64,000 nt of DNA from Bordetella parapertussis (lineage in GTDB: Bacteria; Pseudomonadota; Gammaproteobacteria; Burkholderiales; SG8-39): positions 1-64,000 of the forward strand of contig CAMAWC010000006.1 in the NCBI GenBank assembly GCA_945861875.1. Reading direction: 5' to 3'. Positions 17,680 to 64,000 of the stretch are shown piece after piece. The notes beneath the pieces are model-generated. The model worked only from the letters and a program-made list of their open reading frames with translations, did not search any database and was not told where the DNA came from. A program made the translations under genes and the position numbers. Position 1 is the stretch's first letter. The number at the start of each line of letters is the position of its first letter.

Positions 17680-21217
<3,538 letters not shown>

Positions 21218-21408
21218 GTCTTTATTTACCCCTGGTAATGATGATAAAGGGCGCTCTTTTTCGGGATAACCCCGAATTATTCTTTTAACTTAGTGGTTTG
21301 CGTTGCATAAACCATGTGCGTGTTCGGTTTGAGTACTCTGTATGAATGGGGAGAAAAAGTGTTTTTTTTGGTGCCCGGTTGGTTTATCCACAATCCACTC
21401 ACACCTGT
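21218..21408. other. dnaA-dnaN spacer with a perfect DnaA box; possible origin element
   Basis: This 191-base gap is clearly more AT-rich than its surroundings (runs such as gaattattcttttaac and gtgttttttttgg). It contains one perfect DnaA box, TTATCCACA, at 21384-21392, just downstream of dnaA. I see no second perfect box here, so a full origin cannot be proved. The spacer should also carry the dnaN promoter. Confidence 0.4.
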
Positions 21409-22776
21409 TCAACCTTTTAATACCTGCTCCAATACGTGAAAGTCGCGATTTATCATGGTGTCTTTCTCCCGTAAGGAGGCAATCGTTCTGCAGGCATGCA
21501 GAACGGTCGTATGGTCGCGGTTGCCAAAAGCCTCTCCGATCTCGGGAAAGCTCATTGAGGTGAGTTCCTTTGCCAGGGCCATGGCCACCTGTCGCGGGCG
21601 CGCAATATTGCGGCTGCGTTTTTTTGAGTGCATGTCCGACATTTTGAGTTTGTAATAGTCGGCGACGGTTTTCTGAATATTCTCGATGGAGATCTGTCTG
21701 TGCTGCAGGGACAGCAAATCCTTGAGCGCCTCCTTGGCAAGCTCGAGGGTTATGTCCTTGCCGGTAAATCGGGAGAAAGCGATGACACTCTTTAGCGCTC
21801 CCTCCAGTTCGCGCACGTTGGAGCGGATGTGCTTGGCGACGAAGAAGGCCACCTCCTCGGGCAGGGATAACCCAACGACCTCGGCTTTTTTTAGGATGAT
21901 GGCAACGCGCATTTCCTGTTCGGGCGGTTCTATTGCAACCGTAAGCCCCCATGAAAAGCGCGATTTGAGCCGTTCGCCCAGCCCGGCGATGTCGCGCGGG
22001 TAGGTGTCGCAGGTGATGATGACTTGCTTGCGCGACTCTATTAGCGCGTTAAACGCGTAGAAAAACTCCTCCTGTGTGCGGTCCTTGCCGGTAAAAAACT
22101 GGATGTCGTCGATCAATAACACGTCAAGCGAGTGGTAATAGCGTTTGAATTCGTCAAACGATTTTTGCTGATAGGCTTTTACAACATCGGAGATGTATTG
22201 CGCGGCATGCAGATAGCGTACACGCGATCCCGGAAAGCGAGCTGAAACATGGTTGCCGACCGCGTGCATCAGGTGGGTTTTACCCAGGCCCACGCCGCCG
22301 TAAATGAATAAGGGGTTATAGGAAGTTCCCGGGTTGTCCGCGACCTGCATGGCCGCCGCGCGGGCGAGTTGGTTGGCTTTGCCCGGAACAAAGTTGTCGA
22401 ATGTAAATTCGCCTATCAGGCTGGACCGCTCGGGGGCCGGCTTTGTCGCCGGCGCCCGCGTCGTTGCGGGAAGGGCGCTGTTTGGGGATGGGGCCGGCGT
22501 CGTCGGGGTTGTGGTGCCGGTTTCTTCGGCGGGGGGAAGCGTCATGCAAAGACGCATTGGCGCGCCAAAAAACTCTCCCGCGAGTTGTTCAATTCTGGCC
22601 GCGACGCGCTCATTAATCCACTGCAACACATAACGGTTTGGCGCGAGCAGCGTCAGCTCTCCGCCGGCGGGGTTTGCCACCCCCTCGCGCAGCGGCCGGA
22701 TCCAGGTATTAAACTGTTGATTTGGAAGCTCTTTTTCAAGCTGGGCAACGCAGGAGGACCAGAAACCATCAATCAT
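21409..22776 (-). CDS. dnaA: Chromosomal replication initiator DnaA
   Basis: DnaA binds DnaA boxes at the origin, melts DNA and loads the replicative helicase. Counting from an upstream TTG at 22788, the P-loop GGVGLGKT is residues 164-171; from the chosen ATG at 22776, numbers drop by four and the protein has 455 residues. Domain I ([22 protein letters not shown]) is followed by a proline/threonine-rich linker, the AAA+ domain with Walker B LLIDDIQF, and domain IV with the DnaA signature ([15 protein letters not shown]). I prefer the ATG because the family usually begins just before this domain I sequence. Neither start has a clear ribosome site. A DnaA box in the upstream region suggests autoregulation. 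Confidence 0.96.
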
Positions 22777-53692: not shown

Positions 53693-54301
53693 ATGGATAT
53701 CGACGAGGCAATACGCATCCTCAGAACGCTTCCTGTATCAACTGTTTATGAGTCGGCGGGAAAGCTGGGTGACGTCGCGCCGTCCATCCGCGCGATGGCG
53801 CCGGGAATGCGCCTGGCCGGCCCGGCCTTCACGCTCAAAACGATGCCCGGCGACAACCTTTCCGTGTTTCGCGCGATCCATGAGGCCCCCGCCGGCAGCG
53901 TGCTCGTGATCGATGGCGGTGACACCGAACGCGTGACGATCTGGGGCGGCACTTCGACCACCGCGGCGCAGGCCAAGGGTCTTGCGGGCTGCGTCACTAA
54001 TGCTTCGGTGCGCGATCTCGATGAGATACTTGAATCGGGATTCCCGGTTTTCGCGCCGGGCACCAGTATCCGGGGAACGACAAAGAGCCATCCCGGCTGG
54101 ATCGGGGTGCCGGTGGCGATCGGTGGCGCGATCGTTCGTCCCGGCGATATCATGCTGGGTGATTCGGATGGAGTCATGGTGCTGGCCGTCGAGCGTATCG
54201 ACGAGGTGGTGCCGGCCGCCGTGGAACGGAGAAAGAAGGAGCAGGAAAAGGAACGCCGGCTGCGTGCCGGCGAGTCGGTCAAGAGCGTTCAGGGTTTTTA
54301 G
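53693..54301 (+). CDS. RraA-like protein, 4-hydroxy-4-methyl-2-oxoglutarate aldolase type
   Basis: The 202-residue protein has the RraA fold, shared by the RNase E inhibitor RraA and by class II aldolases that cleave 4-hydroxy-4-methyl-2-oxoglutarate or related keto acids. The conserved motif region reads GCVTNASVRDLDEI (residues 99-112): Arg107 and Asp108 match the substrate arginine and metal aspartate of the aldolases, while the family's usual DG before it is TN here. WGGTSTTAAQAKG provides the GG...A loop. A basic, glutamate-rich C-terminal helix follows. It begins an accessory cluster, 11 bases before the LeuC-like gene. An aldolase role in breakdown of a branched hydroxy acid is likely. 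Confidence 0.8.
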   Translation: MDIDEAIRILRTLPVSTVYESAGKLGDVAPSIRAMAPGMRLAGPAFTLKTMPGDNLSVFRAIHEAPAGSVLVIDGGDTERVTIWGGTSTTAAQAKGLAGCVTNASVRDLDEILESGFPVFAPGTSIRGTTKSHPGWIGVPVAIGGAIVRPGDIMLGDSDGVMVLAVERIDEVVPAAVERRKKEQEKERRLRAGESVKSVQGF

Positions 54302-54312
54302 CCGGAGGGGCA

Positions 54313-55578
54313 ATGTCGTCACCGCAAACCATCACCCAGAAGATACTGTCGCGCGTCGTCGGGCGTCCGGTTACTGAGGGAGAGACCATCTATCCAGAGC
54401 CGGACCTGGTCACCACGCACGACCTGTACGTGGTGAATTTCGACCAGGCCCTTCGTGGGCTTGGGGCTTCAAAGTTGCACAATCCGGACAAGGTGCTGAT
54501 CTCGACCGACCACGAGCCGGTCGCGGCAAACAAGGTGGCGGCCGAGAGGCAGAAGTCCATACGGGAAATCGTGGGCCGCTACGGCATAAAGCGCTTTTTC
54601 GACACCGGGCGGGGTGGCCACGGGCACGTATTTCCCATGGAACAGGGCATTGTCCGCCCTGGCATGCTGGTGATCGCCTACGACACGCACGTGACCAACT
54701 ATGGTGCGGTGGGTTGCCTCGGGTTTGCCGTTGTTACCGAGATCAGCGAGGTACTGGCCTGCGGTTCGGTGTGGATCAGGGTGCCGGAGACCGTGCGCAT
54801 CAACCTCAAAGGGCGCCTGCGAAGGGGCACGGCCATGCGCGACGTGGCGCAGCGTCTCAGCGCGGACCTTGATCCGGACGTGGTCGATTATTGCGTGGTC
54901 GAGTATGGTGGCCCGGCTCTTGCAGATATCGGCTTCGGCGGCCGGATGACCCTGTGCAACACACCGCTTGAGATCGGCGCGAAGTCTGCCATCATCGAGC
55001 CGGACCAGGCGATGATTGACTGGGTCTCTTCGCGTACCAAAGAACCGTTCACGCCTGTATCCAGTGATCCGGGTGCCAAGTACAAGCTCGTGATCGATTA
55101 CGACATGAGCAAGCTCGAGCCTCAGGTGGCGATACCGCCGCGGCCGGATACCGTGGTCAACGTGTCCGAAGTCGAGGGCGTAGAGATCAACCATGCATTT
55201 ATTGGATCCTGCGCCAACTGCTCGATCGAGGACATGCGCGATGCGGCTAGCGTTCTCCGTGGGCGCACCGTGCACCCCAGAGTGCGCATGTTCATCACGC
55301 CGGGAACGCAGGAGATCGCCAGCAAGGCTGCGCAGGAGGGCCTGCTGCAGGTGTTCATCGAGGCCGGAGTCAGCATCACATCTCCGGGTTGCGGCCCCTG
55401 CGCGGGTGGCCGCGTGGGCACGATCGCACTGGGCGAAAAATCCATCAATACCGGTACGCGCAATGACCCCAACCGGCTTGGCCCGGGCGATGCAGGCATC
55501 TACCTGGCGAGTCCTTTTACGGTGGCAGCGTCAGCGGTGGCGGGGCAGATCACCGACCCGCGCGCCTTCCTGCCCTGA
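54313..55578 (+). CDS. LeuC-like aconitase-family hydro-lyase, large subunit
   Basis: The 421-residue protein belongs to the aconitase superfamily, near 3-isopropylmalate dehydratase (LeuC) and dimethylmalate dehydratase large subunits. Iron-sulfur ligand positions can be seen: Cys300 in FIGSCANCS, and Cys360 and Cys363 in GCGPCAGG. Cys303 is an additional cysteine; the usual sequence there is GSCTN. The N-terminal part has the DTHVTNYGAVGCLGFAV block corresponding to the substrate-binding DSHT of LeuC, with threonine for serine. A 4Fe-4S enzyme that moves a hydroxyl group in a branched hydroxy acid is likely. The small subunit follows after 31 bases. The gene pair is next to a RraA-like aldolase, not leucine genes. 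Confidence 0.82.
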   Translation: MSSPQTITQKILSRVVGRPVTEGETIYPEPDLVTTHDLYVVNFDQALRGLGASKLHNPDKVLISTDHEPVAANKVAAERQKSIREIVGRYGIKRFFDTGRGGHGHVFPMEQGIVRPGMLVIAYDTHVTNYGAVGCLGFAVVTEISEVLACGSVWIRVPETVRINLKGRLRRGTAMRDVAQRLSADLDPDVVDYCVVEYGGPALADIGFGGRMTLCNTPLEIGAKSAIIEPDQAMIDWVSSRTKEPFTPVSSDPGAKYKLVIDYDMSKLEPQVAIPPRPDTVVNVSEVEGVEINHAFIGSCANCSIEDMRDAASVLRGRTVHPRVRMFITPGTQEIASKAAQEGLLQVFIEAGVSITSPGCGPCAGGRVGTIALGEKSINTGTRNDPNRLGPGDAGIYLASPFTVAASAVAGQITDPRAFLP

Positions 55579-55609
55579 TCTGCGACGAACAAGAGGAGTC
55601 CACAACACC

Positions 55610-56128
55610 ATGAACTGGATATACAGCGGCAAGTGCTGGAAGTTTGGCGACAATATTTCCTGCGACGCCGACCTCATGAAAAAGGAATTCGCCTCGACGC
55701 GTGAAACGCGTGGTGAGATCCTGCGCGAGCACGTCATGTGCGGGATCGACCCCGACTTCCCCAAGAAAGTATCCCCGCACGACATCATCGTTGCCGGAAA
55801 GCGTTTCGCACAGGGCAATCCGCATATTCAGGGGTTGCTCGGCATTGCCGCATTGGAGCTCGGGCTGGTCGTAGAGTCGATTCCCCGCGGCAGTTATCGC
55901 AACGCAATCAACGCGGGACTGCCCTTCCTGACCCGCTGCGAGAACGTGACGACCGACTGCGAGACGGGCGATTCGCTGCGGGTCGATTTCAGCACCGGTG
56001 AATTTGAGAACCTGACCCGCGGTATCCGCCGCCGGTTCGAGCCGCTGCCGCCGTCCATGCTCGAAATTATTGCCGCCGGCGGCTGGGGTCCGATGCTCAA
56101 ACGCAGGTTGGCGGCGATGGCCGCTTGA
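55610..56128 (+). CDS. LeuD-like aconitase-family hydro-lyase, small subunit
   Basis: This 172-residue protein matches LeuD-type small subunits: GKCWKFGDNISCD near the start, HDIIVAGKRF (57-66), YRNAINAGLPFL (96-107), and a C-terminal swivel end. The signature substrate loop that in LeuD reads G-S-S-R-E is GNPHI here (residues 69-73), lacking the conserved serine and arginine that hold the substrate carboxylate. That suggests a different substrate from isopropylmalate. It starts at 55610 with AAGAGGAG upstream and follows the large subunit by 31 bases. Its own function is an inference from the pair. Confidence 0.8.
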   Translation: MNWIYSGKCWKFGDNISCDADLMKKEFASTRETRGEILREHVMCGIDPDFPKKVSPHDIIVAGKRFAQGNPHIQGLLGIAALELGLVVESIPRGSYRNAINAGLPFLTRCENVTTDCETGDSLRVDFSTGEFENLTRGIRRRFEPLPPSMLEIIAAGGWGPMLKRRLAAMAA

Positions 56129-56369
56129 CTGGGAGCGTCGTGGAAACATGATTCTGGAATTACCAGCCTGCGAATGAAACATTTGCCCGTCGGACAAGCC
56201 TTTTTTGTTTGTTTCGGCTTGTCTAACCCGATAGTCTGATTGCGGTCAGCAGGCTCCGGAATGCTCTTCTCCAAGGGGGGAGTTGCGCTCGAGTATTGGC
56301 GTCGGTGCGCGACTGATCCCGATGACGGCTTGCGTTATATTTAGGCTGTTTCGGGAACCGAGGAGAATT
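56129..56369. other. Intergenic region before the ABC transporter genes
   Basis: No gene longer than the small ORF at its right end is seen. GACAAGCC (56193-56200) pairs with GGCTTGTC (56216-56223) around a 15-base T-rich loop; it may be a weak terminator for the LeuD-like gene or an operator. An AT-rich region (gttatatttaggctg, 56334-56348) may carry the promoter of the transporter operon. The boundary suggests the metabolic and transport genes can be transcribed separately. Confidence 0.35.
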
Positions 56370-56444
56370 ATGGCCCGTTCGCTCGGGTTGGATCGAATTC
56401 TGCAATTTGCGCTGCGGGCAATGTCGGCACGGGGAAAGGCGTGA
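56370..56444 (+). CDS. Candidate 24-aa leader ORF coupled to the ABC permease
   Basis: An ATG preceded by a strong ribosome site (GAGGAG, five or six bases away) opens a 24-codon frame, MARSLGLDRILQFALRAMSA followed by RGKA. Its TGA overlaps the GTG start of the permease as GTGA. The peptide is basic and amphipathic. Such an arrangement couples translation of the permease to the short ORF. It could also be a chance ORF that only serves to deliver ribosomes. I cannot verify translation from sequence alone. Confidence 0.4.
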   Translation: MARSLGLDRILQFALRAMSARGKA

Positions 56445-57325
56445 CTGCAAATTCCAGCGGAGTTCTTCGGTCCAACAGGTGGATTGGCGGCCTGCTGGTG
56501 TTGCCGGCTGTTCTTTGGTTATTGTGCTTTGCCATCGCCCCCATGATTTACCTTGCGTGCCTTTCTCTCTGGACGTCCACTGCGTTTGGCATCACATCGG
56601 ATTGGACGCTCAAGAACTTTGAGACCATATTCAGCGAGCCAGTTTACCTGCGAGCCCTGCTGCGGACGCTAAGGATCGCGGCCCTGACCACGCTGCTTTC
56701 GCTGCTGGCGGCTTTTCCGATTGCCCTGTTCCTTTCCCGGGCACGGGCAAGGACAAAGGCGATTCTCGTGATGCTGATCTTCCTGCCTTTTTGGACGAGC
56801 TACGTGGTTCGCAGCTTTCTATGGTTGCCCATGCTTGGCCGTAACGGGTTGATCAACCAGGGGCTGATGGCCCTGGGCGTGACAGATGCACCAGTGGACT
56901 GGCTTTTGTACAACGAGGGCGCAATTTACATCGGCTTGGTCTACGTTTACATGTTGTTTATGACATTGCCGATATACCAGTCGCTTGACCGGCTTGATGC
57001 AAAATTGATTGAGGCGGCCGGAGACTTGGGGGCTACGCCGCTGCAGGTATTCCATAGGGTGATCATCCCCCTGAGTCTGCCCGGCGTATCTTCGGGCTGC
57101 ACCATGGTTTTCCTGCTGTCGTGCGGAGCCTACGTTACCCCGCAGCTGCTGGGCGGCGCATCGGGCTTGATGATGGGTAATGTCATCGCAACGCAGTTTC
57201 AAAATTCCAATAATTGGGCGCTCGGGGCCGCACTATCAATCGTGCTGGTGGCCGTGGTGCTGCTCGCGCTTGTGTTCGCAGCCCGCCGGCTCGGACTCAT
57301 GAACATATTCATGGGGGCGCGTTGA
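56441..57325 (+). CDS. ABC transporter permease, PotB-like
   Basis: This 294-residue inner-membrane protein has about six hydrophobic helices. Its permease signature (EAA loop) reads EAAGDLGATPLQVFHRVIIPLSLPG, the site that contacts the ATPase. The overall pattern matches the PotB type of the polyamine/opine importer subfamily. The start is a GTG at 56441, overlapping a short upstream ORF. Its stop overlaps the ATG of the second permease by one base. Transported solute cannot be told from the permease alone; polyamines, opines and small organic cations are known for the subfamily. Confidence 0.88.
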   Translation: MTANSSGVLRSNRWIGGLLVLPAVLWLLCFAIAPMIYLACLSLWTSTAFGITSDWTLKNFETIFSEPVYLRALLRTLRIAALTTLLSLLAAFPIALFLSRARARTKAILVMLIFLPFWTSYVVRSFLWLPMLGRNGLINQGLMALGVTDAPVDWLLYNEGAIYIGLVYVYMLFMTLPIYQSLDRLDAKLIEAAGDLGATPLQVFHRVIIPLSLPGVSSGCTMVFLLSCGAYVTPQLLGGASGLMMGNVIATQFQNSNNWALGAALSIVLVAVVLLALVFAARRLGLMNIFMGAR

Positions 57326-58170
57326 TGGTCGGTGCTTCACCCAAGATCCGGCAAAGTGCATGGAAGGGCGCCATGTATGTCTATGCGCTGCTGTTCTATG
57401 CTTTTCTTTATGTTCCTATCATTGTGCTCGTACTTCTTTCCTTCAACGACGCACAGGTAATGGGGTTCCCGTTGAAGGGTTTCACCCTGCGTTGGTACGG
57501 CGAAGCTTTCTCTGGCGGCAGGTTTATGGTGGCCATTGGCAACAGCCTCCTCATCGGAGTCGCGAGCGCGATATTGGGAACCCTGCTTGGCCTTTCTGTT
57601 TGCATGGGCCTGCGGTACCGGCTTCCGGGACGCGGTGTGCTCATCCCGTTGCTGTTGCTGCCGATCATCACGCCGGGCATTGTCGCGGGCGTAATCCTAT
57701 TCGTCTTTTTCGGGTCGGCAGGAGTGCGTTACGGCCTGTGGCCTGCAGTACTGGTTGCACATGTGACATGGGTGTTGCCCTTCGCATTCCTGACCCTCTA
57801 TCCCCGACTTCACCGATTTGACCAGTCCTTGGAAGAGGCGGCGATGGACCTTGGGGCAACGCCCTTCGTCGTGTTCCGCCGGGTTGTGTTCCCATTGATC
57901 AGGCCCGGCGTTGTTGCGACCTTCCTTTTCGCATTCACTTTATCTTTTGACGAGTTCATCAGAACCCTGTTCCTGGTGGGGTCGCAAAGAACCATGCCAG
58001 TTCAGTTGTGGATACTCATTCAGGAGGAGGTTGCACCGTTCCTGCCGGCTGTTGGGGTGGTAATCATGATCTTCACGGTTTCGGCAGCAGCACTGGGTTT
58101 CGTGGTTTCCAGCAGGGCGGGCAGGTTGGTAGCAAGAAGCGAGGCGGGGCGGCCGTTGGTCAATAACTGA
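57325..58170 (+). CDS. ABC transporter permease, PotC-like
   Basis: The 281-residue protein is the second permease, with about six transmembrane helices. Its EAA loop is EAAMDLGATPFVVFRRVVFPLIRPG, nearly the same form as in the first permease, and the FAFTLSFDEFIRTLF block that follows resembles the PotC-type SFDDFVVS motif. An in-frame extension to 57214 overlaps the preceding permease; the ATG at 57325 overlaps the preceding stop by one base (TGATG), so translation is coupled. Together with the first permease it forms the membrane channel. The binding protein follows after 35 bases. Confidence 0.88.
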   Translation: MVGASPKIRQSAWKGAMYVYALLFYAFLYVPIIVLVLLSFNDAQVMGFPLKGFTLRWYGEAFSGGRFMVAIGNSLLIGVASAILGTLLGLSVCMGLRYRLPGRGVLIPLLLLPIITPGIVAGVILFVFFGSAGVRYGLWPAVLVAHVTWVLPFAFLTLYPRLHRFDQSLEEAAMDLGATPFVVFRRVVFPLIRPGVVATFLFAFTLSFDEFIRTLFLVGSQRTMPVQLWILIQEEVAPFLPAVGVVIMIFTVSAAALGFVVSSRAGRLVARSEAGRPLVNN

Positions 58171-58205
58171 GCGACAGGGTGTCGCGATACCAGAGGAGTC
58201 AAGTA

Positions 58206-59336
58206 ATGAACGCAGACACGGGAAGCAAAAGGGATTTCAGGGGCGCGCCCTCAAACGGTGGTCGGCGCTGCGTGTTGCGTGCCGGGATTGCGGCGGGCGC
58301 GCTGGCTGTGGTGCCGGGCTATGTGAGGGCGCAGTCGCCAACTACGTTGGACGTCCTGATGACGAACAGGCTGGTGTTCGGGGAGCTGCGTGAGGTGGTG
58401 GAGCGCGAAGCGAATATCAAGGTCAATGATGCCCCGTTCCAATCCGTTGCTGATACGTTATCGCGGATACTTGCGCCCGGCGGCACCTCCCGATACAGCA
58501 TGATCGTCACGCAGACAGGAGTTGCACGCAAGCCGCTGCTTGGCGAGAATGCGGGCGCCGAAAAGGTTTCGCCGCTCGACTTGAGCAAGATCCCCAATGC
58601 TGCGTCGGTCGCGGAGATATTCAAGGAATATGCGATTTCGCGTGATGGAAAAATGTATGCGATCCCGGTTACCGCAGGCTATGACAGCGTTGTTTACAAC
58701 GCCAGCGTTGTTCCCGAGAAGGATGAATACACTCAGTCCTGGGGAATGCTGTTTGAGGACAAGTACGCGGGACGCATCGCCTGGTTTGATTCGGCGCTAC
58801 ATATGATCTTGATCGCCGGACTGTATCTGGGCAAACCGCGCCCGGAGCTGATAAGCGCCGCGGAATTGTCCGATATCACCAAGTTCCTGATCTCAAAGAA
58901 GAAGAACGTGCGCACGCTGTACACGAGCTTTGCGCAGGGTGCAAACCAGATCGCGAGCGGCGAGGTCGTGTGTACATATGGTCCGATCCCGCTCCGGTCT
59001 GCGCTGCAACAGCAGGGGGTGAACGTCAAGAATTCCTGGTGCAAGGAGGGTGTCCTTTCGTTCGTGTCCGGGGCGGCGATCCCCAAGGACTCGCCCAACC
59101 AGGATCGGGTCCACGCGTTCATCAATTCCATGCTTGGGGCTGCGTATGCAAGCCGCCTGACCCGGATATCGGGCTACCTTTCGACGTCCACCAATGCGGC
59201 GAAGAACCTTTCGGCCGCCGAAGCCCGGCAGGCGGGTTATGGGATTCTTGACGGTTCAGTGAAGCACTATCCGAACAGCCTCCCGCCGAACCTGAACACA
59301 TGGATTGAGGCCTGGAGTCGCGTAAAGAGCGCCTAG
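58206..59336 (+). CDS. Extracellular solute-binding protein of ABC importer, Tat-exported
   Basis: The 376-residue protein begins with a twin-arginine signal: RRCVLRAG (Arg20-Arg21) followed by a hydrophobic stretch (IAAGALAVVPGYV), with cleavage near VRA/QS at about residue 42. The mature part has the periplasmic binding fold of the PotD/PotF or Fe-binding type (family 1), with ITKFLISKKKNVRTLYTSFAQGANQIASGEVVCTYG in the C-terminal lobe. Tat export means it is folded, perhaps with a cofactor, before crossing. It sits between the permeases and the ATPase gene. The ligand is not identifiable; YDSVVYNAS and YGPIPLRS may be ligand loops. Confidence 0.85.
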   Translation: MNADTGSKRDFRGAPSNGGRRCVLRAGIAAGALAVVPGYVRAQSPTTLDVLMTNRLVFGELREVVEREANIKVNDAPFQSVADTLSRILAPGGTSRYSMIVTQTGVARKPLLGENAGAEKVSPLDLSKIPNAASVAEIFKEYAISRDGKMYAIPVTAGYDSVVYNASVVPEKDEYTQSWGMLFEDKYAGRIAWFDSALHMILIAGLYLGKPRPELISAAELSDITKFLISKKKNVRTLYTSFAQGANQIASGEVVCTYGPIPLRSALQQQGVNVKNSWCKEGVLSFVSGAAIPKDSPNQDRVHAFINSMLGAAYASRLTRISGYLSTSTNAAKNLSAAEARQAGYGILDGSVKHYPNSLPPNLNTWIEAWSRVKSA

Positions 59337-59454
59337 CGTCGCCGGCAACGGCACCCCAGACAGGGGGCCGGTTTCTGGCGACAAATTACCGGATGCGACG
59401 GTCGTCTGTCCGGCCATTTTTTGGTAAGGTCATGTTGATACTACGGAGCACGTT

Positions 59455-60531
59455 GTGACCGAAATTGCCGTTTGCGCAAAGGGAATAAGCAAGCGATTTG
59501 GAGAGACCCTGGCGCTTGATGGCGTGTCGGTTGACGTCTGTCGCGGGGAATTCTTCTCGTTGCTCGGTTCAAGCGGGTGCGGCAAGACGACGTTGCTGCG
59601 CATAATCGGGGGCTTCGAAAGTCCGGATTCAGGCGACATTCTCATAGAGGGGAAAAGCGTCCTTCGGGTGCCGCCATACCAGCGAAGCACCAATATGATC
59701 TTCCAGCACCTTGCGCTCTTCCCGCACCTGTCGGTGGCACAGAACATTGCCTTCGGGATGGAAGTAAAAAAACGGCCTGCGGATGAAATTGCCCGCAAGA
59801 CCAGCCAGATGCTCGATCTGGTTCGTCTTGGAGGATACGAGAACCGGGGGATCGACATGCTCAGCGGGGGGCAGAAGCAACGAGTCGCTATTGCGCGCGC
59901 ATTGGTCAACGAACCGGATGTGCTGCTTCTTGATGAACCCCTGGGGGCGCTGGATCTGCAGTTGAGATTGCAGATGCATGAGGAACTGAAACGCATCCAT
60001 CGTGAAATCGGCAGCACCTTCATTTTTGTCACCCACGATCAGGGTGAGGCAATTACGCTTTCCGACCGCATTGCTGTGATGGAGGGCGGGAAAATAGTCC
60101 AACTTGGAACACCGAGGGAAATCTACGAGCGACCGCAGGTCCGGTTCGTGGCCGAGTTTGTCGGGCATGCCAACTTCATCTTTGGCGAAGTTGTCAGTCC
60201 GGGAGACGGCAACGGTTGCTTCATCTCTGCGAACGGCATTACGTACGAAGGTATCGCAACGAGCCAACTGGACGCTGGCAGCAAGGTGTTGGCGATAATC
60301 CGCTACGAGAAGGTGGAATTGCTGATGCCCGGCGAGCCAGGCGATGGTTTGCCATGCCGGGTGGTTGACGCGATCTACCGAGGTTCGATCGTGAGAATAT
60401 CGCTTCGCGCGGATTCAGGGTTGGACCTTATTTGCGAACTGCCGAGTACCCAAGCCAACAGTGCGATCGAAAGCGGGCAGAACGTAAGGGCAAAGTGGGC
60501 ACGTGACCACTTGGTCGTCATGCCGGCATAG
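59455..60531 (+). CDS. ABC transporter ATP-binding protein, PotA-like
   Basis: The 358-residue protein drives the importer. Walker A GSSGCGKT (38-45), the Q-loop around Gln84, the signature LSGGQKQR (136-143), Walker B LLLDEPLGALD (157-167) and the H-loop VTHDQGEA are all present. The C-terminal 120 residues form the TOBE-type regulatory domain (VLAIIRYEKVEL, VVDAIYRGSIVRISLRADSG) typical of PotA and related ATPases. The start is a GTG with GGAG at a good distance. It lies 118 bases after the binding-protein gene, with no clear terminator between. The order permease, permease, binding protein, ATPase differs from E. coli potABCD, but such order varies. Confidence 0.93.
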   Translation: MTEIAVCAKGISKRFGETLALDGVSVDVCRGEFFSLLGSSGCGKTTLLRIIGGFESPDSGDILIEGKSVLRVPPYQRSTNMIFQHLALFPHLSVAQNIAFGMEVKKRPADEIARKTSQMLDLVRLGGYENRGIDMLSGGQKQRVAIARALVNEPDVLLLDEPLGALDLQLRLQMHEELKRIHREIGSTFIFVTHDQGEAITLSDRIAVMEGGKIVQLGTPREIYERPQVRFVAEFVGHANFIFGEVVSPGDGNGCFISANGITYEGIATSQLDAGSKVLAIIRYEKVELLMPGEPGDGLPCRVVDAIYRGSIVRISLRADSGLDLICELPSTQANSAIESGQNVRAKWARDHLVVMPA

Positions 60532-60648
60532 TGGCGGCGCCGGGTCGATGCGGGCTTGCCCGGACGCCAAAAAATTCTCGTTTGCGGGCCGGGCGGGCGG
60601 CGTCTAGCCTGTGAAACTTGGTTTTCTTTCTATTTAGGAATCTGTGCA

Positions 60649-62721
60649 ATGGACGACCGAGCAGCATCCATCGATCCGGTAACGCTTGAGATCATTCGGG
60701 AGGGCGTTATCACCATTGTTCGCGAGATGCGAGGCAACATGCTGCGTGCGGCATATTCGTCCGCGGTCTGCGAAATGCACGACATGTCATGCGCGGTGCT
60801 TGACCATGAAGGGCAGCTCATCGCGCTTTCCGAGGGGGATAACCCGCAGCACATCTTCCCGATCCTCTGGTCAGTGGCGGGCGTGATGGAGAAGTTCAAG
60901 GGCGACATCAATCCGGGCGACATTTTCCTCCATAACGACCCGTTGACGGGCGGGACCCACCTGAACGACATAGGCATGATCGCGCCCCTGTTCCTGGACG
61001 GGAAGCTGGCATTTTTTCCCGTTGTGCGAGTCCATTTTGAGGACGTGGGGGGGATGTCCCCGGGGAGCATCACCGCCGCAGCGACTGAGACAATGCAGGA
61101 GGGTTTGCGAATCCCGGTTGTGCGGGCATTCTCTCGGGGCGTGATCAATCAGGACCTGTTTGATGTATTCCTGAGCAACATGCGGGTCCCAAATGAGCGG
61201 GAGGGAGACTTCGAGGCGATGCTGGGGACCTGCCGGGTCGCGCAGCGCAGGCTTGAGGCGCTGGTCGCCGAGCACGGACGCGATACACAGGTCAGGGCGG
61301 TCAACGAAATGATTCGTCATGCCGAGCGCAGGATGCGCGATCGCATCTCGCAACTGCCGGACGGCACCTACAGCTACGAGACGGCCATGGACCCGCGAGG
61401 CGCGCAGCTGGAGCCTCTGGTCATCAGAACCACTGTGACGATCTCCGGATCGAGCCTCAAAGTTGACTTTACGGGAACCGCACCGCAGAACGCAGGCCCT
61501 TGGAACCTCGGGCCTTCGGGCGCGCCCACCGGAGTGTTCATGGTGCTCAAGGCGCTGCTTGATCGGAACGGCCCGGTCAATTCCGGTACGTTCAGGCCGC
61601 TGGTGGTTCACACGCCGCCCGGCTCCATCCTCAATCCCACCGAGCCTGTGGGGTTCGGCGGGATGGGGGACATCCGCCGGAACCTCGAAATGTCGATCAT
61701 GGGGGCACTGGCGCCCATCATGCCCGGCCATGTGACTGGCGAGACCAAGAGCACGGCGAATCAGGTGATTGTTTCAGGCATCAATCCAGCGACGGATCGC
61801 CCATTCATTTTTTATGAGGCGCCAACTGGTGGCACAGGCGGCTTCCTCGAGCATGACGGGAACTCCGCGTTGCGGACTTTTCTCGAAGGTGATTTCGGAT
61901 CGTTGCAGTCTATCGAGTCATTCGAGGCGAAATTCCCGCTGCGCGCCGAACGCCTTTCGCTGAGGGCTGATTCCGGCGGAGCCGGGACCAACCGCGGTGG
62001 GCTGGGGTTCGACCGTTACATCAGGTTTCTCGGGCCACGTGGACGGCTCACTGTTTTGTCCGATCGCAACGTGCTTCCGCCCTATGGCGTCGAGGGGGGC
62101 TTCGCGGGTGCGCCCAACCAGTTTTCAGTTCTCCGGGGTGGCAGGGAAATCGCGCCATCCAATCTGCCTGGCAAGGTTGCCGGATTCGAGTTGCAGCCGG
62201 ATGACGTCGTCATCGCGCGGAGCAGCGGAGGAGGTGGTTTCGGGGATCCATTGCTGCGCGAGCCCTCACGCGTCATGCACGACGTTGAATTTGGCTACGT
62301 GTCTCCCGGGCATGCCGGGGAGCGCTACGGGGTGGTCGTGAAGGATGGCCGGCTTGATGAGGGCGAGACGAGCCGGGCCCGTAAGAAAATCGCCGAAACA
62401 AGAGTGAAGGGCACTGTCGAACTCGAGCCGGAACTGCGGGATGTCGGGGGGATGCGGCCCTGCTATGTCTCGGAGTGGGATGCCAATGCGCTCCGGTTGT
62501 CCACTGGCGATGTGGCGGAGTTGGTGTCCGGCCATGGCGCGCCGTTTCGGTGCTGGGTTCGCGTAATGAAGGATCGGCGCAAGGGCGTATTCGGTTTGTC
62601 GGCCGATAGCCTGCAGATTTTCGGGGTTCCTCAAGACACGGATCTCGAGTTGCGATCGCTTGGGGTGGATAGCGGCGCGGCGCGGGAGGTATGGCGCCGC
62701 AAACTGGAGGCGCTGTCGTGA
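60649..62721 (+). CDS. Hydantoinase/oxoprolinase subunit B-family protein
   Basis: The 690-residue protein matches HyuB/N-methylhydantoinase B and the C-terminal half of 5-oxoprolinase, ATP-dependent amide-ring hydrolases. MDDRAASIDPVTLEIIREGVITIVREMRGNMLRAAYSSAV is the family N terminus, here started at the ATG at 60649. The glycine-rich GGTHLNDIGMIAP block and the ADSGGAGTNRGGLGFDR motif also fit. It is longer than the usual 520-600 residues because of about 100 extra residues at the C terminus, a size also seen in some relatives. Its partner gene overlaps by four bases. The cluster context suggests opening of a cyclic amide or a related compound. Confidence 0.88.
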   Translation: MDDRAASIDPVTLEIIREGVITIVREMRGNMLRAAYSSAVCEMHDMSCAVLDHEGQLIALSEGDNPQHIFPILWSVAGVMEKFKGDINPGDIFLHNDPLTGGTHLNDIGMIAPLFLDGKLAFFPVVRVHFEDVGGMSPGSITAAATETMQEGLRIPVVRAFSRGVINQDLFDVFLSNMRVPNEREGDFEAMLGTCRVAQRRLEALVAEHGRDTQVRAVNEMIRHAERRMRDRISQLPDGTYSYETAMDPRGAQLEPLVIRTTVTISGSSLKVDFTGTAPQNAGPWNLGPSGAPTGVFMVLKALLDRNGPVNSGTFRPLVVHTPPGSILNPTEPVGFGGMGDIRRNLEMSIMGALAPIMPGHVTGETKSTANQVIVSGINPATDRPFIFYEAPTGGTGGFLEHDGNSALRTFLEGDFGSLQSIESFEAKFPLRAERLSLRADSGGAGTNRGGLGFDRYIRFLGPRGRLTVLSDRNVLPPYGVEGGFAGAPNQFSVLRGGREIAPSNLPGKVAGFELQPDDVVIARSSGGGGFGDPLLREPSRVMHDVEFGYVSPGHAGERYGVVVKDGRLDEGETSRARKKIAETRVKGTVELEPELRDVGGMRPCYVSEWDANALRLSTGDVAELVSGHGAPFRCWVRVMKDRRKGVFGLSADSLQIFGVPQDTDLELRSLGVDSGAAREVWRRKLEALS

Positions 62722-64000
62722 TTCGAATCGGCATCGACGTTGGCGGGACGTTTACCGATCTGGTTTGCTGGGACGAGGCGACCGGCCGGATGACGGCGCT
62801 GAAAGTGCCCTCGACTACGGGGGCTGAGCACCAGGGGTTCGCACAGGGAATTGCGGCACTGGGAATGCCCGGAGAGAGCATTTCGCAGATAGTCCACGGG
62901 ACGACTGTCGCCACCAACACACTTTTGCAGCGGGTTGGAATTCGCGTGGCGTTGCTGACGACCGAGGGCTTCCGGGACGTGCTGGAGATTGGTCGCTCCA
63001 TGCGGTATTCAGCCAACAGTCTGTTCGATTCGAAGTTCGTCAAGCCGGCTCCGTTGGTGGAGCGTCCGATGCGCGCGGAAATCAGGGAGAGGGTTTCGTC
63101 CTCAGGCGAAGTACTGGTGCCGCTGGATGCGCAATCGTTTGCGCAAGCGGAAGCTGCGGTTCGCCGTCTGAAGCCGGAATCAGTCGCAGTTTGTTTTCTC
63201 AATTCCTATGCCAGTGATGTAAACGAGCAGGCAATCAAGGAGCATCTGCAGAAGGTGTTCCCCGGCATGTTGATATGCACTTCCCGCGAGGTTTTCCCGG
63301 GGTTTCAGGAGTTCGAGCGGTTTTCGACTGCAGCCCTCAACGCCTACCTCATGCCAAGCATGGCAAGGTACCTGGACGTTCTTGGCGCCGAGTTGAAATC
63401 AGCCGGCGTTGTACGGCCCATATTGCTGATGGGATCGGGCGGCGGTGCAATGACTCCCAAGATGGCGGCGCAGCTTCCGGTCAGGACCATCCTTTCGGGG
63501 CCCGTCGGTGGAGTGAATGCGTCACTGCGTGTCATGCGAACGCTTGAAGTTGCGGACGCGATTTCCTATGACATGGGGGGGACGTCCACCGACGTGTCTG
63601 TGATCCGCAATTATGAGGCGGTAAGCACCCAGCAGACCGTGTATGGGGGAATGCCGGTCCGGGGCTCAATGATCGAGATAAACACCGTAGGCGCCGGAGC
63701 CGGCAGCATTGCCTTTCTGAGCGAGGACGGCATGCTTCAGGTCGGCCCCGAGAGTGCCGGAGGAGTTCCCGGGCCGGCGTGTTACGGCGCCGGCGGACAG
63801 GCGGTCACGGTGAGCGACGCAAATCTGCTGTTAGGCAGACTTAATGCGGACCGCGCCCTGGGCGGCAGGATCAGGCTCAACCGGCAGCTAGCGGAGCACG
63901 CGCTGTGCGCCCTCGCCGTCAAAATGTCCGGCATGACGGCAATCGACCTTGCCGAAGGCATCATCAGAATCGCGGTGGCGAAAATGGTTGGCGCAATTCG
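62718..64000 (+). CDS. Hydantoinase/oxoprolinase subunit A-family protein (partial)
   Basis: The gene begins with a GTG that overlaps the HyuB stop (GTGA) and runs off the window, showing 427 residues. It is the HyuA type, an ASKHA-fold ATP-binding subunit. The phosphate-1 motif reads IRIGIDVGGTFTDLV (residues about 2-16), then VHGTTVATNTLLQR, and the later phosphate-2 type motif YDMGGTSTDVSVI. ILSGPVGGVNAS and the SAGGVPGPACYG block also match. It should act with the preceding subunit as one ATP-dependent enzyme. The usual length is about 680-700 residues, so roughly 260 residues are missing. The substrate is unknown. Confidence 0.92.
   Translation, partial: MIRIGIDVGGTFTDLVCWDEATGRMTALKVPSTTGAEHQGFAQGIAALGMPGESISQIVHGTTVATNTLLQRVGIRVALLTTEGFRDVLEIGRSMRYSANSLFDSKFVKPAPLVERPMRAEIRERVSSSGEVLVPLDAQSFAQAEAAVRRLKPESVAVCFLNSYASDVNEQAIKEHLQKVFPGMLICTSREVFPGFQEFERFSTAALNAYLMPSMARYLDVLGAELKSAGVVRPILLMGSGGGAMTPKMAAQLPVRTILSGPVGGVNASLRVMRTLEVADAISYDMGGTSTDVSVIRNYEAVSTQQTVYGGMPVRGSMIEINTVGAGAGSIAFLSEDGMLQVGPESAGGVPGPACYGAGGQAVTVSDANLLLGRLNADRALGGRIRLNRQLAEHALCALAVKMSGMTAIDLAEGIIRIAVAKMVGAI

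Follow-up and report, generated by a model that had tools for sequence, protein, structure and literature searches.

Gene content of the locus

The window analyzed here is a 64-kb stretch of contig C6 from the 4.07 Mb, 208-contig assembly of an uncultured bacterium. Open reading frames and family profile searches place nine genes at its 3′ end, encoding, in order on the plus strand, an RraA-like lyase, LeuC- and LeuD-like hydro-lyase subunits, the components PotB, PotC, PotD-like and PotA of an ABC importer, and the hydantoinase-type proteins HyuB and HyuA:

53693–54301, +, RraA-like class II lyase/aldolase (Pfam RraA-like, E = 3e-41; nearest solved structure 3NOJ, HMG/CHA aldolase, E = 2e-30)
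54313–55578, +, LeuC-like large subunit (Aconitase, E = 9e-80; top NCBIfam match PRK00402; PDB 4KP2, E = 2e-84)
55610–56128, +, LeuD-like small subunit (NCBIfam LEUD_arch, E = 4e-28; AlphaFold model, template modeling (TM) score 0.87 to 3VBA)
56129–56440, no strand, leuD–potB gap of 312 bp (single weak promoter-like match at 56125–56152)
56441–57325, +, PotB-like ABC permease (family profiles)
57325–58170, +, PotC-like ABC permease (family profiles)
58179–59336, +, PotD/PotF-like solute-binding protein with a twin-arginine-type leader (family profile)
59455–60531, +, PotA-like ABC ATPase (family profiles)
60649–62721, +, HyuB, hydantoinase B/oxoprolinase (Pfam, E = 1e-150)
62718–64000, +, HyuA (Pfam; ATP motifs), running past the window edge to a stop at contig position 64802

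These families, their order and their single direction had been predicted from the window alone, and the Pfam and NCBIfam profiles bear the prediction out. RraA and LeuC are separated by 11 bases, LeuC and LeuD by 31 bases. The cluster extends beyond the window on the contig, where HyuA is complete.

Recurrence in other genomes

A LeuC-based genome scan returned six close relatives (62–68% identity) in alpha- and betaproteobacterial metagenome-assembled genomes, to which family- and order-level searches added more. In the resulting tree the LeuCD of the window belongs to a clade of 14 loci (support 98/91) from uncultured Alpha- and Betaproteobacteria, here called window-type. HyuAB lies within about 10 kb of LeuCD at 10 of these 14 loci; the corresponding count for the sister clade is 2 of 17 (Fisher p = 0.001). 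With background densities of 3.6 HyuB, 0.9 RraA and 1.3 isocitrate lyase (ICL) genes per Mb, each estimated from six genomes, chance would place a HyuB within 21 kb at ~7% of loci and an RraA- or ICL-type lyase at ~5%, against 10/14 and 13/14 observed. A stronger argument for non-chance clustering than these densities is the HyuB tree, in which the HyuBs adjoining LeuCD are spread over five lineages or more; the pairing of HyuAB with LeuCD has therefore formed repeatedly. The same trio has also been rebuilt from other genes at more distant loci, as ICL–LeuC–LeuC–LeuD–HyuB–HyuA in L052 and as RraA–LeuD–LeuC…HyuA–HyuB in L093. The parts therefore do not occur together only here, as a neighborhood search might have found; the grouping is conserved elsewhere.

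The clade was found in two others among 98 genomes of the same family, and in this genome alone among 398 across the phylum, which marks it as rare. A LeuC search of plasmids gave no close relative (best 40%), and the binding-protein search of plasmids gave almost no relatives; LeuCD + ICL operons are annotated on Azospirillum, Variovorax and Ancylobacter plasmids.

As a separate observation, an M20-type hydrolase gene stands beside HyuAB–LeuCD–ICL in L064 (14066–18311), with a Rieske oxygenase and a LigB-like dioxygenase recognized by eye, a possible clue to an aromatic or heterocyclic substrate.

A LeuD-like subunit without the catalytic serine

The LeuCD pair had been predicted to be altered, and the alteration goes further than was claimed, both the general-base serine and its arginine being replaced in LeuD. 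LeuD gave no Pfam match at 1e-3, and its AlphaFold model adopts the LeuD-type fold, with modest confidence in loop 61–70. Structure alignment with 3VBA runs ungapped through the motif stretch, which reads GNPHIQG where isopropylmalate isomerases have GSSREH(A). Because GNPHIQG replaces GSSREH, the Ser642-equivalent general base is missing, and Arg644 is likewise replaced; Ser642 is conserved throughout the aconitase superfamily, AcnX included (PMC8184944). The window pair resembles the methanogen isopropylmalate/citramalate isomerases (3VBA, 4NQY, 4KP2) in fold, subunit split, cluster cysteines (C300, C360 and C363 of LeuC, invariant in an alignment of seven orthologues) and LeuD sequence (~40% identity by structure alignment), but differs from them in this motif, in its catabolic setting and in the presence of a canonical LeuCD elsewhere in the genome.

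The motif GN[P/A]HIQG is found in LeuD at all 14 window-type loci, which span two classes and whose LeuD sequences are 51–67% identical and lie in open frames; sister-clade LeuDs carry GK[P/A/S]H, G-PKMNG or similar. As the motif is invariant or nearly so, the frames are open and the cysteines are kept, conservation under selection rather than decay is indicated. Leucine biosynthesis was rejected for the window pair since canonical leuC and leuD lie side by side on contig C4 of the same genome, with GSSREH in that LeuD. An AcnX-type hydroxyproline or mevalonate dehydratase was rejected as well, the Pfam AcnX score being weak and under cut-off.

Two further LeuCD-like pairs occur in this genome. 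Contig C146 (1–6157; L105) carries a LeuC–LeuD operon with a lyase of the ICL/phosphoenolpyruvate (PEP) mutase type, whose LeuD keeps the serine motif as GSSREQ and so lends itself to comparison with the serine-less copy; Asp/Glu-racemase-like and MmgE/PrpD-like genes alongside were recognized by eye. On contig C63 (7361–9226; L062) there is a third pair, whose motif reads GKAHVQG and which neighbors a gene for a Bug-type receptor. Elsewhere, three LeuC genes accompany one LeuD in L049 (8646–14131), with a Bug receptor in between, and two LeuC genes accompany one LeuD in L052, L053 and L066.

Exchange of C–C lyases

Next to the same LeuCD clade, RraA-like lyases and those of the ICL/PEP-mutase type occur as alternatives: RraA is present at 8 of the 14 loci, including the window, an ICL/PEP-mutase-family gene adjoins LeuCD at five others, and the two never occur together (0/14). 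The top model for these ICL/PEP-mutase-family genes is methylisocitrate lyase. The remaining locus, L089, has neither, and carries a fumarylacetoacetate-hydrolase-family gene instead.

The metal/enolate motif of RraA-like class II pyruvate lyases is reportedly D-X20-R-D or G-X20-R-D-X2-E/D, a definition ascribed to Mazurkewich 2014. For two motifs in RraA-like lyases, PMC5065237 cites Mazurkewich 2014. The window RraA carries G-X20-R-D-X2-E as its metal/substrate motif at residues 86–111, as do all 7 complete sequences tested (the window and six orthologues); the motif is absent from the more distant RraA of L093. Fold and motif are shared with HMG/CHA aldolase and other RraA-like lyases (3NOJ, PF03737), but the window protein scores 122 bits against the NCBIfam LigK/HMG aldolase equivalog, below its cut-off of 304.5. 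On this score, and with no ring-cleavage genes recognized beside RraA in the window, a role in gallate or protocatechuate 4,5-cleavage was rejected.

HyuBA and the importer

The metal-site and ATP motifs of the HyuAB family are present. HyuB carries the D-H-D-H metal tetrad as D47, H106, D109 and H131 (numbering starts two codons before the ATG at 60649), and HyuA has ATP motifs of the forms DxGGT, D(M/I)GGT and GxxPGP (DVGGTFTDL, DMGGTS and GGVPGP). The D-H-D-H tetrad has been reported for CapB (PMC8453981), and in the HyuB of L064 one tetrad histidine is glutamine. Despite sharing tetrad and ATP motifs with caprolactamase CapBA, N-methylhydantoinase and 5-oxoprolinase, the window proteins score far under the caprolactamase (HyuB 282 bits and the partial HyuA 314 bits, cut-off 1000) and acetophenone carboxylase equivalog cut-offs, and HyuB has an extra C-terminus of ~108 residues (62395–62718) with no Pfam match. 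HyuB of L106 and that of a second Pot–HyuBA unit on the contig are of similarly extended length. The assembly holds 11 HyuB genes.

The importer had been predicted to be complete and of the polyamine type. It is complete, all four components belonging to the families of PotABCD/PotFGHI, but a polyamine function is not supported. In alignment with PotF and SpuE, the binding protein has Ile and Ser at PotF positions 247 and 278, where PotF has the acidic residues that bind the amine. Polyamine use was rejected on this absence. A nearby arginine is invariant in nine binding-protein homologues, all of which (9/9) also have the N-terminal RR pair. Because the amine-contacting acids are gone and this arginine is kept, the sequence points to an anionic ligand as the likely one. 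Beside LeuCD in L045, L046, L056 and L089, PotBCD is orthologous to that of the window (54–67% identity; PotB 62–65%, PotC 60–67%), whereas HyuAB has been exchanged.

Proposed pathway and alternatives

The constant elements across loci are a hydro-lyase and a C–C lyase, together with an importer and, as the usual partner, an ATP-dependent amide hydrolase. Nothing in the open-access papers searched describes HyuAB together with LeuCD and an aldolase. The cluster is real, recurrent and, as far as that literature shows, undescribed; all its gene families are known, and its novelty as a variant lies in the combination and the serine-less LeuD. The original prediction of a catabolic module is partly supported, in that importer, ATP-dependent amide hydrolase, hydro-lyase and C–C lyase are grouped and recurrent.

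We put at about even the chance that these genes form a catabolic module, spread by horizontal transfer, whose substrate is a carboxylate with a cyclic amide (lactam or imide) ring. In such a pathway the compound would be taken up by the PotBCDA-type importer with its twin-arginine binding protein, and its ring would be opened by HyuBA at the expense of ATP, HyuA carrying out the phosphorylation and the metal site of HyuB the hydrolysis, as the family mechanism and the residues present suggest. The variant LeuCD, as an iron–sulfur hydro-lyase, would then add water to, or remove it from, the resulting unsaturated di- or tricarboxylate, and the RraA-like metal-dependent lyase would cleave the hydroxy acid, giving a small acid and either pyruvate or oxaloacetate; an ICL/methylisocitrate-lyase-type enzyme would take this final position in sister loci. 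Among the substrates that would fit are substituted maleimides, lactam acids and ring products derived from pyridines. Gene content, conservation, lyase swapping, repeated HyuAB recruitment and active-site residues are observed; substrate, step order, products and co-expression are proposals. A further step, which we hold only tentatively, is that LeuCD represents a group within the aconitase superfamily that has not been described before and that dispenses with serine as the general base, relying on some other residue, for instance an invariant His or Ser in GN[P/A]HIQG…GS. It would serve a new cyclic-amide pathway with interchangeable RraA- and isocitrate-lyase-type enzymes.

Several points weigh against the cyclic-amide module. 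The reaction of RraA-type enzymes sets free a pyruvate enolate and therefore calls for a 4-hydroxy-2-oxo acid, whereas ICL-type enzymes cleave substituted malates. Since the two cut different bonds in known reactions, the substrate may vary between loci, and the LeuCD clade may have no single function; this is the main weakness. The lost LeuD serine could reflect lost isomerase activity and no new chemistry. The 14 loci are relatives, so that their counts are non-independent and uncorrected for kinship, and some contigs are short. In L043, RraA–LeuCD stands with no HyuAB in ~27 kb upstream and 8 kb downstream, which makes HyuAB a usual but non-obligatory partner. Finally, the 312-bp gap between leuD and potB may split the operon; promoter and terminator scans of the region gave matches at or near the level in shuffled sequence.

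That gap also fits a different reading, of two independent neighboring modules on a catabolic island, RraA–LeuCD acting on a branched unsaturated dicarboxylate and Pot–HyuBA on a lactam or hydantoin. The parts do occur separately, RraA–LeuCD being without HyuAB in the sequence fetched at L085 as well as at L043, and HyuAB without LeuCD elsewhere, for example in L106 and on many plasmids; the window's contig itself has two Pot–HyuBA units and one RraA–LeuCD. Against independence stand the frequency of HyuAB beside window-type LeuCD, drawn from several HyuB lineages, and the retention of orthologous PotBCD in L045, L046, L056 and L089 despite HyuAB exchange, and we consider this arrangement possible but doubtful. 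The clade might instead belong to an aerobic relative of the end of nicotinate fermentation, which in Eubacterium barkeri comprises the dimethylmaleate hydratase DmdAB and the dimethylmalate lyase Dml: HyuBA would open a substituted maleimide, LeuCD would convert a dialkylmaleate to a dialkylmalate, and a lyase would yield pyruvate and a fatty acid. The exchange of RraA for an ICL-type lyase is reminiscent of DmdAB and Dml, and the likeness would lie in a LeuCD-type hydro-lyase paired with a C–C lyase and a ring-opening amide hydrolase earlier in the pathway. In its favor, LeuCD is accompanied by an ICL/methylisocitrate-lyase-type gene at L063, L064, L086–L088 and L052, on C146 of this genome and on plasmids, and several of these have HyuAB adjacent; the window, however, has RraA and no ICL, and RraA chemistry does not split a malate directly. 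Its ATP-dependent HyuBA and its LeuD without Ser and Arg are further differences, and we regard this route as improbable. Least probable of all is that LeuCD is a degenerate duplicate of isopropylmalate isomerase in a neighborhood without a coherent pathway, as the loss of the catalytic Ser and Arg beside a canonical pair on C4 might suggest; the retained motif, open frames and cluster cysteines across 14 loci in two classes speak against it.

Should the cyclic-amide module be confirmed, it would add to the ways in which uncultured proteobacteria can degrade cyclic amide acids, and it would place in a functional context, for the first time, a LeuCD-like group that databases label isopropylmalate dehydratase. 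The serine loss makes the textbook mechanism testable, by asking which base acts in an iron–sulfur hydro-lyase without it, and the swap between RraA-like and methylisocitrate-lyase-like enzymes offers a direct path to the substrate class.

Surroundings of the cluster

On the contig, HyuA is followed on its 3′ side by a GcvA-like LysR regulator, a cupin and the second Pot–HyuBA unit, ordered PotB–PotC–HyuB–HyuA–PotD–PotA (contig 66504–74582; L009 4504–12582). Its proteins are 37–56% identical to those of the first unit, from which it differs in gene order. Within the window, G+C drops to 51% at 20001–22000, compared with ~60% around it, possibly an acquired segment.

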